From Candidatus Atribacteria bacterium (GTDB lineage Bacteria; Atribacterota; JALVIU01): 5,701 nt of DNA. Below, in pieces: positions 1 through 5,701 of this stretch (its first letter is position 1; each line of letters opens with the position of its first letter). The translations under genes were made by a program, and so were the position numbers. The stretch spans positions 1 to 5,701 of the forward strand of contig JALVIU010000080.1 in assembly GCA_027028665.1 (NCBI GenBank). Direction: 5' to 3'. Below the pieces are notes generated by a model that worked only from the letters and a program-made list of their open reading frames with translations, was not told the DNA's origin and did no database searches.

Positions 1-476
1 AGTTCATGTATAGCTATTGCGCCCAATGTAGCAACAGTCATCAGGAAATTTTCATCAAATATCTGCCCTCTCCCTATATTCCTTAATGCACTTAAAAGTA
101 CCCTATTCCCTGATAATAAGTATGCTGCCAAAAATACAGCATATTCCCCAATGAAAAATGGGGTATTTTGAAGAAATGGTTTAAAAATAAGTCCGAATAA
201 AAAAAGAGAACCTGACAAAACAAGCATAAAAATTTTTTTATGTCCATTTTCTTCTTCCTCTTTTTCATAGGAAGACTCCAAAGGTTTCACACTAACATCA
301 GGTTCTATCCTTTTTACTTCCTCTATTGCTTTGTCAATATCATCTGCATCTATTATAAGGGTCTCTGTTGCAAAATTTACAGAGACTTCTTTTACTCCCT
401 CTAATTCTTTAAGCCTTCCTTCAATCTTAAATGCACAATCTGCACAATCTAAATTCTGAAGTTTATATTTTTTCAT
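1..476 (-). CDS. cadA: Heavy-metal-transporting P1B-type ATPase (Cd2+/Zn2+/Pb2+ exporter), N-terminal part
   Basis: Partial gene: 158 codons are visible and the 3' end runs off position 1. The family exports soft divalent metals across the cytoplasmic membrane using ATP. Residues 1-70 form a heavy-metal-associated (HMA) domain with the metal-binding motif NLDCADCA (Cys11, Cys14). An acidic linker follows (about 72-82, EKEEEE), then hydrophobic segments at about 84-103 and 110-128. Next comes a GQIFDENFLMTVATLGAIAIHE-like stretch (from about 137), typical of CadA/ZntA at the third membrane helix. The phosphorylation DKTGT, the CPC motif and the ATP-binding domain would lie outside the window, so metal specificity cannot be read. 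The ATG (476-474) overlaps the repressor stop as ATGA, and GAGAGG lies just upstream inside the repressor gene, so translation is probably coupled. The match to Cd/Zn/Pb exporters rather than Cu exporters rests on the NLDCADCA and DENFLM motifs. Confidence 0.9.
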   Translation of the reverse strand, partial: MKKYKLQNLDCADCAFKIEGRLKELEGVKEVSVNFATETLIIDADDIDKAIEEVKRIEPDVSVKPLESSYEKEEEENGHKKIFMLVLSGSLFLFGLIFKPFLQNTPFFIGEYAVFLAAYLLSGNRVLLSALRNIGRGQIFDENFLMTVATLGAIAIHE

Positions 477-847
477 AAATTACCTCTCTTTTGTTCCTCT
501 ACATGGGCAAATGTCTGTTTTATCAAAGTTTCAACATGCTCATCATTTAAAGAGTAAAAAATATGTCTCCCCTCTTTCCGATATTTAACAATCCTTAAAC
601 TTTTTAAAATTCTCAATTGGTGAGATACCCCAGACTTTGTAATTCCTAAAAGTTCTACAAGATCATATCCGCAAAGCTCCTCTAAGGAAAGAGCAAGTAC
701 AATCTTAAGTCTGGTGGGATCAGATAGGACCTTAAAAATTTCTGAAACTGCATGAATAGCCTGATCCGACTTCATTTTAGAGTTTACACGAGATATTTTA
801 TCAAGGTGAACATCTTCATCAGTACACATATTTTTCAACTCTTGCAT
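473..847 (-). CDS. ArsR/SmtB-family metal-sensing repressor (CadC/SmtB-like)
   Basis: This 124-residue protein has the length usual for the family. Such proteins bind operator DNA as dimers when metal-free and release it on binding metal, de-repressing the exporter encoded next to them. The winged helix-turn-helix is clear: FKVLSDPTRLKIVLAL (38-53), the ELCGYDLVELLGITKSGVSHQLRIL segment (57-81, with recognition helix about 70-82) and the wing KYRKEGRHIFYSL (88-100). The alpha-5 metal site of SmtB/CzrA is complete, with Asp102, His104, His115 and Glu118 at the same spacing as SmtB's DxH and HxxE. The alpha-3 motif ELCVCDL of CadC/ArsR reads ELCGYDL, keeping Cys59 but losing the second cysteine. 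One N-terminal cysteine (Cys8) and His14 remain. The start is supported by AGGAGG five bases upstream. The gene is first in the operon with the P-type ATPase, overlapping it by ATGA, and is probably autoregulated through the palindrome at 869-892. Zinc is the likeliest inducer; cadmium or lead are alternatives. Confidence 0.92.
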   Translation of the reverse strand: MQELKNMCTDEDVHLDKISRVNSKMKSDQAIHAVSEIFKVLSDPTRLKIVLALSLEELCGYDLVELLGITKSGVSHQLRILKSLRIVKYRKEGRHIFYSLNDEHVETLIKQTFAHVEEQKRGNL

Positions 848-868
848 CTTTCCCTCCTTTTTAAAATG

Positions 869-892
869 ACAAATTATTGTTCAACTATTTGT
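869..892. promoter_or_regulatory. Candidate operator for the ArsR/SmtB-type repressor
   Basis: This is a 24-bp imperfect palindrome. Outer arms ACAAAT and ATTTGT match exactly, and inner TTG and CAA also pair across the dyad, giving 9 of 12 symmetric positions. It starts one base after the -10 box and covers the predicted transcription start, the usual position for an ArsR-family operator. The minus strand also carries TTGAACA here, similar to the TGAA-type half-sites of SmtB/CzrA operators. That this repressor binds it is inferred. Confidence 0.6.
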
Positions 893-921
893 ATAATAGC
901 ACACCTTTTTTATAATGTCAA
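893..921 (-). promoter_or_regulatory. Sigma-A type promoter of the repressor/metal-ATPase operon
   Basis: Read on the minus strand, a perfect -35 box TTGACA (921-916) is followed by a 17-bp spacer and the -10 box TATTAT (898-893). TGC precedes the -10 box, giving an extended TGn element. Transcription should begin near 886, about 40 bases before the repressor start codon. Confidence 0.8.
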
Positions 922-1080
922 ATATTTTTTATTAAACCTAATGAGGATTATAGATGCAGGTCTCTACTTATGATTTCTTTTTTATTTTGTTTATTATCCT
1001 TTTTCAGAGTGTGGCCCCATTATCTCATAAAGCGACGTTACATTGTACTCTTATCCTTCCATGATTAACCCTTACTATTT

Positions 1081-1108
1081 ATTCCTTATCTTATAGAGTA
1101 TGAGGAAT
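1081..1108. repeat. Short inverted repeat, first of three consecutive hairpins
   Basis: Arms ATTCCTTAT (1081-1089) and ATGAGGAAT (1100-1108) pair over nine positions with one T-G wobble, around a 10-base loop. On its own it is weak. It gains interest from lying directly beside two stronger hairpins and sharing the GAGGAAT/ATTCCT core with the one at 1153-1189. Confidence 0.4.
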
Positions 1109-1112
1109 GTAA

Positions 1113-1146
1113 AGAATTTGCTCCTTTCTTTTTAAAGGAAAATTCT
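1113..1146. repeat. Inverted repeat with two-part stem
   Basis: The outer arms AGAATTT (1113-1119) and AAATTCT (1140-1146) pair perfectly. The inner arms TCCTTT (1122-1127) and AAAGGA (1134-1139) also pair perfectly. A GC bulge lies between them on one side and the loop is six bases. On the minus strand the stem ends in a short, interrupted T-rich stretch, so it could act as a weak terminator for the ABC operon. Confidence 0.5.
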
Positions 1147-1152
1147 GGTGAG

Positions 1153-1189
1153 TACTTATTCCTCCCCTAAAACAGGGGAGGAATAAGTA
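1153..1189. repeat. Perfect 16-bp inverted repeat (possible terminator or structured RNA hairpin)
   Basis: Left arm 1153-1168 (TACTTATTCCTCCCCT) and right arm 1174-1189 are exact reverse complements around the loop AAAAC. The CCTCCCC/GGGGAGG core makes the hairpin very stable. It lies 70 bases past the stop codon of the ABC ATPase on the minus strand, where a terminator is expected. Neither side has the T-run of a standard intrinsic terminator, so mRNA 3'-end protection or a mobile-element remnant are alternatives. Confidence 0.65.
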
Positions 1190-1258
1190 AGATTTGAGCT
1201 TTTATGTTTCCAGGGATTCCATACTTATGCTAAGGGATCCATGATATAAGACCCATTA

Positions 1259-2071
1259 TTATTTAAATATCGAAATCTCCACATTCTTTCTTAAATATCC
1301 TATTACTATATCCTTAAACTTTGGATACTCACCCACATCTCTTTTGGTCTTTACAAGAGTCCCTCCATCTATATTTGCCACTACTTCACCATCTGGAATA
1401 GTCTCCCCTTCTGCTATAATCCTATGGCTCTCTTTTGCATTATCAAGTGTATCTTTATACAAAATCTTTCCCTCCCTGATAACAGCAAATGATGTGATAA
1501 TCTCTTCGAGTTCATAGATCTCATGAGATGAAATAACTATAGTAGTATCTCTATACTGTGCAAAATTTCTTATAAGTTTCAGAACTTCATCCTTCTTCAA
1601 TGGATCCAGATTATGTGTAGGTTCATCCAGAAGTAATACCTCTGCACCAGATGCCATGGAGAGGGCAAGGAAAAATAATGTCTTTGTACCTGCAGAAAGC
1701 TTGTCTACCCTCTCTCCAAGCCCCAGGGAATAATGCACTATAATATCATTCAGCAGTTTATCATCAAATTTAGGATACAAAAGTTTATAGATTGTTTTGT
1801 ATTCTCCTACCTTAAACCCGGGGAAAGAAGACCTTGTCTCATTCAACATAGCGAGTCTGCTTTTTACATTCTCCGGATCAGCAGTACCCAATATCTCAAC
1901 TTCTCCACTTGTAGGCCTTATCTGCCCATTTAGGATCCTGAGTGTAGTAGTCTTTCCTGCGCCATTTGGGCCAATAAGTGCAAAGATCTCGCCTTTTCCG
2001 ATCTCAAGGTTCATATCCACTAAAACCTGTTTATCCTTAAACTGTTTTTTTACATTTTTCAGTTTTATCAT
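1259..2071 (-). CDS. ABC transporter ATP-binding protein, YtrB-like
   Basis: The protein (270 residues from the chosen start) is the ATPase of a small exporter-like ABC system acting with the hydrophobic protein encoded just upstream. Visible motifs are Walker A GPNGAGKTT (34-42), signature LSAGTKT (125-131), Walker B LLLDEPT (146-152), D-loop HNLDP (153-157) and switch His183 in VISSHE. The signature departs from LSGGQ, as is common in YtrB-like ATPases, and the usual Q-loop glutamine is not evident in LNETRSSFPGF (76-86). About 75 residues after the nucleotide-binding domain form a C-terminal tail of unknown role. Two starts are possible: GTG at 2080, directly after the permease stop, or ATG at 2071. 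ATG is preferred because AGGTG sits six bases before it, the product then begins MIKLKNVKKQF as family members do, and GAGGGG is only three bases from the GTG. It is the last gene of the operon. The substrate cannot be inferred. Confidence 0.9.
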   Translation of the reverse strand: MIKLKNVKKQFKDKQVLVDMNLEIGKGEIFALIGPNGAGKTTTLRILNGQIRPTSGEVEILGTADPENVKSRLAMLNETRSSFPGFKVGEYKTIYKLLYPKFDDKLLNDIIVHYSLGLGERVDKLSAGTKTLFFLALSMASGAEVLLLDEPTHNLDPLKKDEVLKLIRNFAQYRDTTIVISSHEIYELEEIITSFAVIREGKILYKDTLDNAKESHRIIAEGETIPDGEVVANIDGGTLVKTKRDVGEYPKFKDIVIGYLRKNVEISIFK

Positions 2072-2077
2072 CTTTTT

Positions 2078-2082
2078 CACCT
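2078..2082 (-). promoter_or_regulatory. Ribosome binding site that decides the ABC ATPase start
   Basis: AGGTG on the minus strand lies six bases before the ATG at 2071-2069, and its last three bases are themselves the competing GTG start at 2080-2078. This spacing favours the ATG. A stronger GAGGGG (2089-2084) is only three bases from the GTG and 12 from the ATG, so use of the GTG cannot be excluded. Confidence 0.45.
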
Positions 2083-2623
2083 ACCCCTCATAATTGTATA
2101 CAAATCCATAATACCCAATTCCAAGAACTAATAGTGAAAAAATTGCACTAAAAAGTTGATTTCCCTGAGTAAGTACGCTTATATAAGAATATCCTGGGAC
2201 AGATAATAAAATAGCATCCACTGCGAGCACCAAAAGGCTCATACCAAACAGAGAGCGTTCTCCTGATGCAAAATATGTAGCTACTCCAAAATAAAAGGTA
2301 AAGAATATGAAAAGATACACTATAGAATAGAGAGTAGTAGTACCTGAAAAGATTCCTCCAACAAGAGAGGAAACAAGTATAAGAAAAAGGCCAGAAAGCC
2401 AGGACAAGAAAAATAACTCTTTCTTTCTAAAAGGTAAAGACAAGAGAGAAATAATACTATTTTTTCTCTCTATATCCAATCCCAGGATTCTCATACCAAG
2501 AAAGAAAGCCATAAAACCCTGGATAGGGAGAAGTGGTATACACAAACCAAGAAAAAGAGCAAATATATGCTTCCCCTTCACACGGAAAAAGATATTTAGA
2601 AATGCCTCAATCTTATTTATCAT
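2081..2623 (-). CDS. Small ABC transporter permease-like membrane protein
   Basis: This 180-residue protein is very hydrophobic. Segments at about 19-47 (long enough for a hairpin of two short helices), 70-91, 98-119, 125-143 and 157-176 give roughly five or six membrane helices. The loop LSLPFRKKELFFLSW (61-75) before the second long segment resembles the cytoplasmic helix of ABC-2 type permeases, where the pattern leu-pro-basic-basic recurs. No enzyme motif is visible. The start ATG (2623-2621) is backed by GGAGGAGG nine bases upstream, inside the end of the GntR gene, which it overlaps by 11 bases. It most likely forms the membrane half of the transporter powered by the ATPase encoded immediately downstream. 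At 180 residues it is short for a full permease, so it may work as a homodimer. The assignment rests on hydrophobicity and context rather than a recognised family signature. Confidence 0.75.
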   Translation of the reverse strand: MINKIEAFLNIFFRVKGKHIFALFLGLCIPLLPIQGFMAFFLGMRILGLDIERKNSIISLLSLPFRKKELFFLSWLSGLFLILVSSLVGGIFSGTTTLYSIVYLFIFFTFYFGVATYFASGERSLFGMSLLVLAVDAILLSVPGYSYISVLTQGNQLFSAIFSLLVLGIGYYGFVYNYEG

Positions 2624-2972
2624 TTTTATAAACCTCCTCCAGTATTGTAATAGCGATTAAAAGATCTACATTGTTCTCCCTCAACAATCTTGCAAAATTT
2701 TTTATTTCGGATAAAACTTCCTTTTTTATAAAAGATGCCTGCGTTATAAAATACCCTATCCCATGCTGAGCCTGGATTACTCCTTCAAATTGGAGCCTCT
2801 CATATGCCTTAAGCACCGTATTTATATTTACACCCAACATCCTTGCAAGATCCCTTGTAGGGGGAAGTTTATCTCCTTCTTTCATCCTCCCCAGGACAAT
2901 TTCCTTTTTTATTTGATTCATTATCTGGATATACACAGGCACACCTGAATGTTTGTCTATCCTAATCCCCAT
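2613..2972 (-). CDS. GntR-family transcriptional regulator, YtrA subfamily
   Basis: From the preferred start the protein has 119 residues, the short form typical of YtrA-type regulators, which lack a large ligand-binding domain. Residues 1-77 are the winged helix-turn-helix: GVPVYIQIMNQIKKEIVLGRMKEGDKLPPTRDLA, then the recognition region LGVNINTVLKAYERLQFEGVI (46-66) and the wing HGIGYFI (70-76). The remaining 42 or so residues would form the small helical dimerisation domain. An ATG at 2993 would add seven residues, but the ATG at 2972 gives the normal family beginning (MGIRIDKHSGVPVYIQI) and has GGTGGAG just upstream. The gene overlaps the stop of the solenoid-protein gene by 11 bases and the permease start by 11 bases, so the proteins are probably made in coupled fashion. 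It likely represses this operon by binding the palindrome at 3871-3892. The signal it senses is unknown; relatives respond to envelope-active compounds. Confidence 0.93.
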   Translation of the reverse strand: MGIRIDKHSGVPVYIQIMNQIKKEIVLGRMKEGDKLPPTRDLARMLGVNINTVLKAYERLQFEGVIQAQHGIGYFITQASFIKKEVLSEIKNFARLLRENNVDLLIAITILEEVYKNDK

Positions 2973-3843
2973 AGCGCTCCACCACATTTCCAAATCCTTC
3001 TCTCTTTATATCCAACTTCCCGGGATTTCCAGGTGGTAAGGTATATCTAATCTTTGTGCCAAGCCCATCTACCGAAAGAATCCATGTACCTTCCCATGGG
3101 GTAGTGTATTTTAAATTTATATCTGCACCCATACCGTCTATCAAAATAGATGGAGCCCTAATGACTGAAGAGTGCAATTTTATACCCATTCCATCTATTT
3201 CTAACTCTTCCAGATCTAATATTCCTTCTATATCTGCACCCATACTATCTATGGAAAGCCTCTTTGCATTTATATACCCCATTATCTTTACACCCATAGC
3301 ATCTACACTCATATCATCTATCTGAGACTTTGCACCTATTACAATCTCTTTTGCCCGCACTCTGCCATATAACTTAAAAAAAGAAATCCCATTATAAAAG
3401 GTAGGGGCTTCTATAGTCAAGATATCCCCTACTCTTTCTACTCTCACTCCCTCTGGTACACCTATGTCCCCTTTATCTTTATCAAATTTGATGATAAAAC
3501 CCGGCCCACTTATCTTTATCCTCTTTGCAGATGGAATAAAACTAACCGGAAGATCAGGATGAGAAAGCTCTACCTCACGAGAGATAAAAGGGGAACGAAA
3601 TCTCATAAAGGAAAGAGAGGCCTTTCTAAGAAACGAAACAGGGGAAAGGGCTATAGGTAATAAAAATATTATGAGAAAAACTATTGGCCCCACTATTTTT
3701 CTAAAATTATAAGAAAAAATAAGAAAACCCAAAACCCCTCCTAAAATAGAAAAAATATTCGGCCCCCTTGCAAAGGATATGCCAAAAGACAATGCTAATA
3801 TTCCTAAAGCCAAAAGAGTATTTTTTACATATGGATAGCTCAT
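2962..3843 (-). CDS. Membrane-anchored protein with C-terminal beta-solenoid (adhesin-like, DUF4097-type) repeats
   Basis: From the preferred start the protein has 293 residues; numbers here count from the longer 295-residue form. Three hydrophobic segments at about 9-27, 31-47 and 52-70 form a membrane anchor. From about 105 to 275 the sequence is short beta-strands with a recurring turn motif: DAMGVKI (183), DSMGADI (201), DGMGIKL (219), DGMGADI (238) and DGLGTKI (261). Repeat spacing is 18, 18, 19 and 23 residues, as expected for stacked solenoid rungs. This resembles the putative adhesin domains (DUF4097/DUF2807) often fused to membrane helices near envelope-stress operons. Function is unknown; a role in sensing or scaffolding for the transporter is inferred from being first in the operon. 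The ATG at 3849 is only three bases from AGGAGG (3858-3853), whereas the ATG at 3843 is nine bases away, so 3843 is preferred. The stop overlaps the GntR start by 11 bases. Confidence 0.82.
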   Translation of the reverse strand: MSYPYVKNTLLALGILALSFGISFARGPNIFSILGGVLGFLIFSYNFRKIVGPIVFLIIFLLPIALSPVSFLRKASLSFMRFRSPFISREVELSHPDLPVSFIPSAKRIKISGPGFIIKFDKDKGDIGVPEGVRVERVGDILTIEAPTFYNGISFFKLYGRVRAKEIVIGAKSQIDDMSVDAMGVKIMGYINAKRLSIDSMGADIEGILDLEELEIDGMGIKLHSSVIRAPSILIDGMGADINLKYTTPWEGTWILSVDGLGTKIRYTLPPGNPGKLDIKREGFGNVVERYGD

Positions 3844-3852
3844 ATCCATATC

Positions 3853-3858
3853 CCTCCT
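3853..3858 (-). promoter_or_regulatory. Ribosome binding site that decides the solenoid-protein start
   Basis: AGGAGG on the minus strand is nine bases before the ATG at 3843-3841 and only three before the ATG at 3849-3847. The first distance is workable for initiation and the second too short, so the protein probably begins MSYPYVKN rather than MDMSYP. Confidence 0.55.
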
Positions 3859-3870
3859 TTCTGTATTCTT

Positions 3871-3892
3871 GTGTCATAGATAACTATAACAC
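3871..3892. promoter_or_regulatory. Candidate operator for the GntR (YtrA-type) regulator
   Basis: This 22-bp palindrome has arms GTGTCATAG and CTATAACAC, which match at eight of nine positions, around a four-base centre. It covers the -10 box and the predicted start of transcription, so binding would block RNA polymerase. Widely spaced GTGT/ACAC half-sites are, from memory, also a feature of known YtrA-type operators. Assignment to this regulator is inferred from position and gene content. Confidence 0.6.
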
Positions 3893-3911
3893 TAATATAC
3901 AAATTTGTCAA
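3883..3911 (-). promoter_or_regulatory. Sigma-A type promoter of the solenoid/GntR/ABC operon
   Basis: On the minus strand a perfect TTGACA (3911-3906) is separated by 17 bp from TATAGT (3888-3883). Transcription should begin near 3876, giving a leader of roughly 33 bases. A 14-bp palindrome of A and T (3925-3938) lies 14 bp upstream of the -35 box and may act as an UP-like element. Confidence 0.8.
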
Positions 3912-4107: not shown

Positions 4108-4136
4108 TTCACAAAAAAGATTATATCTGATATAAT
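4108..4136 (+). promoter_or_regulatory. Sigma-A type promoter of the ACT/UPF0210 operon
   Basis: TTCACA (4108-4113, one mismatch to consensus) is 17 bp from a perfect TATAAT (4131-4136), with TGA directly before it as an extended -10 element. Transcription should begin near 4143, leaving a leader of about 32 bases, too short for a riboswitch. A 6-3-6 inverted repeat (TTATAT, CTG, ATATAA; 4121-4135) overlaps the -10 box but is simple A/T sequence. Confidence 0.8.
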
Positions 4137-4174
4137 ATACATGCACTCTCTTTATCATAAAAAGGAGAATAAAA

Positions 4175-4444
4175 ATGAGAGCTATTATAACTGTGGTGGG
4201 TAAAGATCGTGTAGGAATTATTGCAGGAGTAAGTAATCTCCTTGCAGATGCAAATGTTAATATCTTAGATATAAGCCAGACAATCCTTCAGGAATACTTT
4301 ACAATGATAATGCTTGTGGATTTATCAAATATGAATACAACGCTGGAAGAACTTAAAAATAAGTTAAAGCAAAAAGGCGATGAATTAGGTGTATCTATAA
4401 AGCTCCAACATGAAGATGTCTTTCGTGCAATGCACAGGATATAG
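4175..4444 (+). CDS. Single ACT-domain protein, UPF0237 family
   Basis: The 89-residue product is essentially one ACT domain, the usual size for UPF0237. ACT domains are small beta-alpha-beta-beta-alpha-beta folds that bind amino acids or related ligands at dimer interfaces. Strand 1 is AIITVVG (3-9); the ligand-loop region GKDRVGIIAGVSNLLADANVNI (9-30) has the conserved glycine (Gly14) and begins helix 1. LDISQTIL (31-38) and YFTMIMLVDL (41-50) are strands 2 and 3, helix 2 is about 55-70, and VSIKLQHED (73-81) is strand 4. The N-terminal layout resembles the glycine-cleavage regulator GcvR, but no partner of that system is present. AGGAG seven bases before the ATG supports the start. It is first in an operon; its stop codon shares bases with the next gene's Shine-Dalgarno site, implying coupled synthesis with the UPF0210 protein. 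It is probably that protein's ligand sensor or regulatory subunit, which is inference. Confidence 0.92.
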   Translation: MRAIITVVGKDRVGIIAGVSNLLADANVNILDISQTILQEYFTMIMLVDLSNMNTTLEELKNKLKQKGDELGVSIKLQHEDVFRAMHRI

Positions 4445-4453
4445 GAGGATATC

Positions 4454-5701
4454 ATGATAAATCCGTACGAAATACTTGAGACAATTCGTATGATAGATCA
4501 AGAAAAATTGGATATCCGCACTATCACTATGGGAATATCACTGCGCGATTGCATAGATTCTGATGGCGATAAGGCAAGAAGAAAGATATATGATAAAATT
4601 ACAAAATGTGCAAAAAACCTTGTAAAAACAGGAGAAAAAATTGAACTTGAATATGGCATACCTATTATAAATAAAAGAGTCTCTGTTACTCCTATATCAA
4701 TAATTGCAGAGGCAACAGATGAAGAAAATTATGCAAAATTTGCAAAAACTATGGATAGTGCAGCAGAAGCGATAGGTATAGATTTTATTGGTGGTTTTTC
4801 TGCTCTTGTGCACAAAGGATATACTAAAGGAGATGAAATACTCATTAGATCTATTCCAGAGGCCTTAAGTATTACAAAAAGAGTCTGTTCTTCTGTCAAT
4901 GTAGCAACAACCAGGGCAGGTATCAATATGGATGCAGTGCGACAAATGGGAGAAATTGTCAAGAAAACAGCAGAACTTACAGCAAAACAAGGCGGAATAG
5001 GTGCTGCCAAATTGGTAGTATTTGCAAATGCGCCAGAGGACAATCCATTTATGGCAGGGGCATTTCACGGGGTAGGAGAACCAGAATGTGCAATAAATGT
5101 CGGGATAAGTGGGCCAGGAGTGGTGAGAGCTGTACTTGAGAAACTAAAAGATGCGCCTTTTGACGAAGTAGCAGAAGCTATTAAGAAGACAGCATTTAAA
5201 ATCACAAGAATGGGTCAGCTTGTAGCACAGGAGGCATCAAGATTGCTCGGTGTACCTTTTGGTATTGTAGATCTTTCTCTTGCACCTACACCTGCTATTG
5301 GCGATAGTGTTGCACATATTCTCGAAGAAATGGGATTAGAAAATTGTGGGGCACCAGGGAGCACAGCTGCACTTGCATTATTAAATGATGCTGTTAAAAA
5401 AGGCGGTGCCATGGCTTCTTCTCAAGTAGGCGGATTAAGTGGTGGATTTATACCTGTAAGTGAAGATGCAGGAATGATCGAAGCTGTTCAAAAAGGTTCT
5501 TTGAGTATTGAAAAATTAGAGGCTATGACTGCTGTTTGTTCTGTAGGTCTTGATATGATCGCTATTCCAGGTGATACACCTTCATCTACTATCTCTGCAA
5601 TAATTGCAGATGAGGCCGCCATTGGAGTAATAAATAATAAAACTACAGCTGTCCGCATTATTCCTGTACCTGGAGGGCATATAGGGGAGATGGTAGAGTT
5701 T
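4454..5701 (+). CDS. UPF0210 / DUF711 ('PFL family') protein, 3' end missing
   Basis: The first 416 codons are open and the gene runs off the window; the family is about 450 residues, so perhaps 35 are missing. The biochemical function is not established to my knowledge. The name 'PFL family' reflects proposed similarity to pyruvate formate-lyase-like folds, not a shown activity. Family-like stretches include [17 protein letters not shown] (19-35), [16 protein letters not shown] (about 97-112), [17 protein letters not shown] (about 208-224), [21 protein letters not shown] (about 275-295), [40 protein letters not shown] (about 299-338) and [12 protein letters not shown] at the window end. Six cysteines are visible (33, 52, 145, 212, 298, 362). 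There is no signal peptide or membrane helix, so it is probably cytosolic. The ATG has AGGAGG five bases upstream, overlapping the ACT gene's stop, with a 9-base gap between the genes. A glycyl-radical motif would be expected near the C-terminus if it were a true radical enzyme, but that part is not visible. Confidence 0.93.

Follow-up and report, generated by a model that had tools for sequence, protein, structure and literature searches.

Glycine-related RNA leaders before relatives of a UPF0237-UPF0210 gene pair from Candidatus Atribacteria

Most Clostridia sampled carry the protein families UPF0210 (DUF711) and UPF0237, as do lactic acid bacteria, corynebacteria and methanogens; structures have been solved, with no function assigned. 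The closest described proteins are SP0239 (2HA9) and the ACT family member 1ZPV of Streptococcus pneumoniae, which represent the same two families as the pair reported here, SP0239 differing in that residues 212 and 298 are not cysteine. DUF711 has the ten-stranded alpha/beta barrel of the ribonucleotide reductase/pyruvate formate-lyase (RNR/PFL) superfamily in common, but is much shorter and is without the glycyl radical domain. In arrangement the pair may be likened to acetohydroxyacid synthase IlvB/IlvN, a large enzyme with a separate small ACT regulatory subunit encoded in one operon, although the catalytic fold of IlvB is unrelated to that of DUF711. The ACT domains of SerB, PurU and GcvR share the ACT_6 region of UPF0237 but are fused to an enzyme or belong to another system, and UPF0237 is distinguished by a tail of its own, F83-x-x-M86-H87, which is invariant in the family and missing from the SerB and PurU-like ACT domains compared. 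Glycine riboswitches and T-boxes, the latter turning genes on when charged tRNA is scarce, form regulons whose leaders are found on homologous pairs, but not on the pair of the window.

The window is the whole stretch of DNA that was analysed, the entire 5,701-nucleotide contig G000:C80 (JALVIU010000080.1) of a fragmented genome of 1.79 Mb, the assembly of which is 90% complete. The features of the gene pair are as follows.

4108..4136, plus strand: TTCACA-17-TATAAT, a promoter of the sigma-70 type with extended TG, judged by consensus match only (11 of 12 positions)
4162..4167, plus strand: ribosome-binding site AAGGAG of the ACT gene, from the sequence
4175..4444, plus strand: UPF0237 ACT-domain protein, 89 aa (NF001220, ACT_6 PF13740, structure 1ZPV)
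4443..4448, plus strand: ribosome-binding site AGGAGG of the DUF711 gene, from the sequence, overlapping the ACT stop codon TAG at 4442-4444
4454..5701, plus strand: UPF0210/DUF711 ("PFL family") protein, 416 residues up to the contig end, which truncates the gene at its 3' side (NF003700, PF05167, 2HA9)

The promoter is, as a consensus match only, the top-scoring plus-strand site of the region. The two ORFs are in the same frame and separated by 9 nt, GAGGATATC. The shared promoter, the 9-base spacing and the ribosome site over the first stop codon, all named in a preliminary description of this DNA, were borne out by the sequence and the consensus scan. The DUF711 ORF has no stop codon up to the contig end, and ~36 C-terminal residues are missing from the window. 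The missing C-terminus is supplied by contig C164, the DNA of which is 97% identical over an overlap of 1,048 bases that ends exactly at both contig ends; the C164 copy probably comes from another strain of this organism. On C164 the DUF711 gene has a normal end, and 10 bases downstream begins a tungsten/molybdopterin gene of the aldehyde:ferredoxin oxidoreductase (AOR) superfamily (locus L041, 1170-3044), with convergent genes for an HpcH/HpaI aldolase and DUF498 after it. The best NCBIfam match of the AOR gene is GAPOR, at 354.6 bits far below the cut-off of 1300. Positions 3-3911 of the window carry divergent genes on the minus strand behind a promoter-like TTGACA-17-TATAGT (3911-3883). These encode a 295-aa unknown protein, a GntR-type regulator, a 180-aa protein without family match and an ABC ATPase and, further along, an ArsR regulator and a ZntA-like metal ATPase.

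Both proteins score well above the thresholds of their families: 136.1 bits against NF001220 (UPF0237; cut-off 74) for the ACT protein, 716.3 bits against NF003700 (cut-off 440) and 654 bits against PF05167 (cut-off 25) for the DUF711 protein. The ACT protein matches ACT_6 (PF13740), has 1ZPV as its closest solved structure (E 3.6e-19) and is related to GcvR (35 bits). Residues D11 (93/93), G14, N29 (92/93) and Q35 are invariant or nearly so in UPF0237 and are common to the first ACT domain of archaeal SerB, which scores 129.8 bits against the UPF0237 model. In an alignment by hand, D11 and N29 coincide with the serine-binding residues N346 and N364 of SerA from E. coli. The invariant tail may be the contact with the partner. 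The ACT and DUF711 proteins of one homologous locus (L067), modelled as one fused chain, gave a pLDDT of 88.9 and a pTM of 0.88, which are whole-chain scores and not a measure of the interface. The general model of the preliminary description, an ACT sensor that controls a large enzyme-like partner, stands as likely, backed by the conserved residues and by the pairing across genomes. Of the outcomes which that description had named as refuting it, lack of co-occurrence and lack of conserved pocket residues did not arise.

Among 41 genomes of the window's phylum, 17 encode DUF711 and all 17 have UPF0237 directly upstream; UPF0237 exceeded the cut-off in none of the 24 genomes without DUF711. 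In the archaeal phylum of Methanococcoides (60 genomes), stand-alone UPF0237 is present in 18 of 18 genomes with DUF711. One archaeal genome (G046) has the two genes on different contigs, each beside unrelated genes, so the co-occurrence does not rely on linkage alone. The ACT gene lies directly upstream of DUF711 in 94 of 102 loci; the remaining eight comprise two contig-end cuts, two loci with less than 1 kb upstream and four true exceptions (L081, L096, L111, L137). A search started from ACT in Clostridia found it in 81 of 118 genomes, with DUF711 next to it in 30 of 30 loci examined. Sulfolobus acidocaldarius has DUF711 and no UPF0237 match. DUF711 is not generally required, because many genomes are without it. 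The earlier proposal of a recurrent two-protein unit is upheld by this strong co-occurrence and by the recurrence of the ACT partner.

No third gene is conserved beside the pair across the 102 loci, and the gene neighbourhood was rejected as a clue to the pathway: the neighbours look like lineage context, namely Veg and endonuclease V for the window's phylum, tRNA-modification-like genes for archaea and leu genes for a single family. At L042-L057, which belong to other families of the window's phylum, veg-like and endonuclease V-like genes precede the pair in constant order, from which the window differs. The window DUF711 is up to 78% identical to proteins of Clostridia but shares only 55-62% identity with those of its own phylum, a pattern suggestive of transfer or mis-binning. 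The pair also occurs on Enterococcus plasmids, which account for 19 of 30 matching plasmid records (for example at 41435-43059 of NZ_CP034945.1, under the annotation PFL family protein); 17 of the 30 are predicted to be conjugative. In the archaeal phylum the pair and tandem-ACT SerB seemed to exclude each other, a pattern that is confounded by clade and was discarded.

Rfam scans of 24 homologous loci placed a glycine riboswitch immediately ahead of the pair in five (L070, L078, L080, L084 from Clostridium caldaquaticum, L092) and a T-box in two (L063, L068). A covariance model built from the Rfam-detected leaders added riboswitches at L091 and L118, giving seven riboswitch leaders in total. 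With this model, seven of the eight aptamer sites in 1.5 Mb are ACT-DUF711 leaders (chance ~5e-14, with five of the seven having served to build the model); Rfam alone, independently of the model, places five of six sites there. In the Alkalibaculum genome the sole glycine aptamer found is the ACT-DUF711 leader. Both T-boxes have the specifier GGA and the bulge UGGA, which fits tRNA-Gly; a second T-box-like element is located upstream at L063. Glycine control was seen at ~9 of ~94 leaders, all Clostridia-like, and most homologues are without it; 30 further Clostridia leaders close to Petroclostridium contain no glycine aptamer. The window's own leader has neither riboswitch nor T-box and does not place the pair in a glycine riboswitch regulon, so the glycine assignment of the window's pair rests on homology. 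Searches of the freely accessible literature on both families gave neither a function for ACT-DUF711 nor a link to riboswitches. The regulatory link to glycine in relatives of the window's pair is new here, and provides a concrete, testable lead to the function of UPF0210 and UPF0237.

In all seven riboswitch leaders a terminator-like hairpin follows the aptamer, and its 5' arm can pair, over an unbroken 7-12 bases, with the 5' strand of P1 and the aptamer core. Shuffled arms paired equally well in 0-5% of cases (<1% in six of the seven leaders); L091 is a weak case. Within the same genomes such pairing is present in the control leaders of an AGCS symporter (glycine/alanine) and of threonine synthase and missing from those of gcvT and grdX. 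The layout, judged by complementarity, is that of an OFF switch in which glycine would close P1 and free the terminator. A conserved 5' hairpin in the leaders fits the ghost hairpin of a type-2 singlet, a class of which 90% control transporters (PMC6944388). The OFF layout, the type-2-like hairpin and the glycine T-boxes together point to expression at low glycine, and the ACT-DUF711 pair is probably made under that condition. In the genome of Clostridium sp. C8-1-8, which carries L092, thrC (L209) also follows a glycine riboswitch with OFF-type terminator pairing.

The fold of DUF711 was examined on a model of a full-length relative (L061) that is 78% identical to the window protein (pLDDT 90.3, pTM 0.90). 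In the structure ranking 2HA9 was at the top (Z 54.2), and all other rows listed were ribonucleotide reductases or glycyl radical enzymes (Z 13-16, 290-369 residues aligned), a match over most of the ten-stranded barrel. The window protein itself matches 2HA9 with E 4.1e-173. As modelled, DUF711 is a compact ribonucleotide-reductase/pyruvate-formate-lyase barrel without glycyl-radical domain; ECOD likewise assigns it to the RNR/PFL barrel group (PMC4390871). At least 98% conservation among 116 homologues was found for 110 of the 416 positions, many of them charged (R75, K121, D196, E209, D273, D284, K315, K316, E337, D338, D367, K396 and R401), as expected of an enzyme pocket or active site and in keeping with the glycine-rich loops and the active site suggested before. 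The six cysteines of the preliminary description are present (33, 52, 145, 212, 298, 362). Of the three singled out there, Cys33 is invariant (115/115), while Cys212 varies and Cys298 is mostly C or V; Cys145, which had been overlooked, is invariant (116/116). Position 362 is C or S, and Cys52 varies. The DUF711 protein DIP1287 of C. diphtheriae is S-mycothiolated under hypochlorite at Cys324 in a GGMMAC loop (PMC5504048); the equivalent residue in the window is serine.

The reading that we favour, with middling confidence, is that the pair consists of a catalytic and a regulatory subunit acting together in glycine supply, with DUF711 as a non-radical barrel enzyme. DUF711 would be an enzyme on the ten-stranded barrel of RNR and the glycyl radical enzymes, with the radical chemistry absent, and UPF0237 would be its allosteric subunit, arranged as IlvN is beside IlvB. 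UPF0237 would most likely sense glycine (or serine) and slow DUF711 when the amino acid is plentiful, whereas at low glycine the pair would be expressed and glycine supplied. This supposes that the function of the window's pair can be read from the RNA control in relatives, that glycine is the ligand of the ACT protein, that the two proteins are in contact and that DUF711 activity yields glycine. The reaction can only be guessed at: threonine, or a hydroxy amino acid like it, might be split at a C-C bond into glycine and an aldehyde. Most of the genomes concerned also encode serine hydroxymethyltransferase (SHMT), an alternative source of glycine; its distribution did not separate genomes with the pair from those without. 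According to the preliminary description no reaction is assigned; from the regulation in relatives, the field can be narrowed to glycine supply. If the favoured reading is true, one more glycine-supply enzyme is added, as well as an RNR/PFL superfamily member without a radical that bears on the origin of the fold.

Glycine riboswitches mostly govern glycine cleavage genes (PMC6944388, PMC11477304), excess glycine is toxic (PMC11477304) and the ACT protein is related to GcvR, all of which would suit a pair that consumes or senses excess glycine in a GcvR-like role and is turned ON with glycine. We consider such a role unlikely in view of the terminator-aptamer complementarity, which OFF leaders show and which gcvT and grdX leaders from these genomes do not, the type-2-like ghost hairpin, and the starvation-activated glycine T-boxes before two homologues. 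It is also doubtful that DUF711 is a non-catalytic regulator or scaffold that binds a metabolite and controls other proteins together with the ACT protein; the lack of a known reaction and of conserved pathway neighbours would agree with this, but the many conserved, often charged positions are as expected of an active site. DUF711 could also be read as a cryptic enzyme of the glycyl radical or thiyl radical kind, given its barrel, its invariant C33 and C145 and, at the C-terminus, the motif R-G-G-R-I-P-A-P with an invariant glycine 11 residues before the end; to this reading we give very little credence. The spacing of the motif is unlike R-V-x-G-Y, and Gly_radical (PF01228) matched neither the window protein nor the C164 protein including its C-terminus (Pfam: DUF711 only), nor anything else in the window's genome. 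C. glutamicum, S. acidocaldarius, M. jannaschii and M. acetivorans have DUF711 and lack the glycyl radical domain, and Lundin 2015 (PMC4390871) likewise found SP0239 to be without a radical glycine. The loop after the fifth strand (193-209, starting N-A) is almost invariant and has no cysteine; placed by strand order and not by coordinates, it would be in the finger-loop position, where the RNR/PFL superfamily has its thiyl cysteine, and DUF711 would thus be without a finger-loop cysteine. All matches to the PFL-type activating enzyme (TIGR02493) in the window's genome, 90% complete as assembled, were below the cut-off.

A more specific form of the glycine-supply reading, tentative at best, takes DUF711 as an alternative threonine (hydroxy amino acid) aldolase that replaces LtaE, cleaving threonine to glycine and acetaldehyde; it is similarly speculative that the AOR relative encoded next in the window's genome removes the aldehyde. 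Among Clostridia, LtaE-like PF01212 was found in 7 of 42 genomes with the pair versus 24 of 37 without (Fisher p 2e-5), strong matches in 1 of 42 versus 14 of 37, and LtaE-like proteins and the pair are disjoint in 14 control genomes. PF01212 includes other enzymes, however, and its matches were sorted by frame length only. With relatedness controlled on an SHMT tree, seven informative pairs remained, divided 6 versus 1 (strong matches 5 versus 0), a borderline result that makes the anticorrelation only suggestive. One of the genomes with the pair has threonine synthase behind an OFF-type riboswitch of the same kind. AOR-family genes next to or near DUF711 amount to two cases, that on C164 and one two genes downstream in Maledivibacter, and no catalytic residue supporting aldol cleavage was recognised. 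The LtaE distribution, the threonine-synthase riboswitch and the two AOR neighbours make conversion of threonine to glycine and an aldehyde a reasonable first test, and no more. There is a slim chance that a non-radical DUF711 makes glycine from threonine or a related amino acid under feedback by UPF0237, as an unrecognised route in Clostridia, lactic acid bacteria and archaea.

A molybdenum/tungsten riboswitch (L080, 9791-9903) was observed in Maledivibacter halophilus just past DUF711, before ferredoxin-like and AOR genes.
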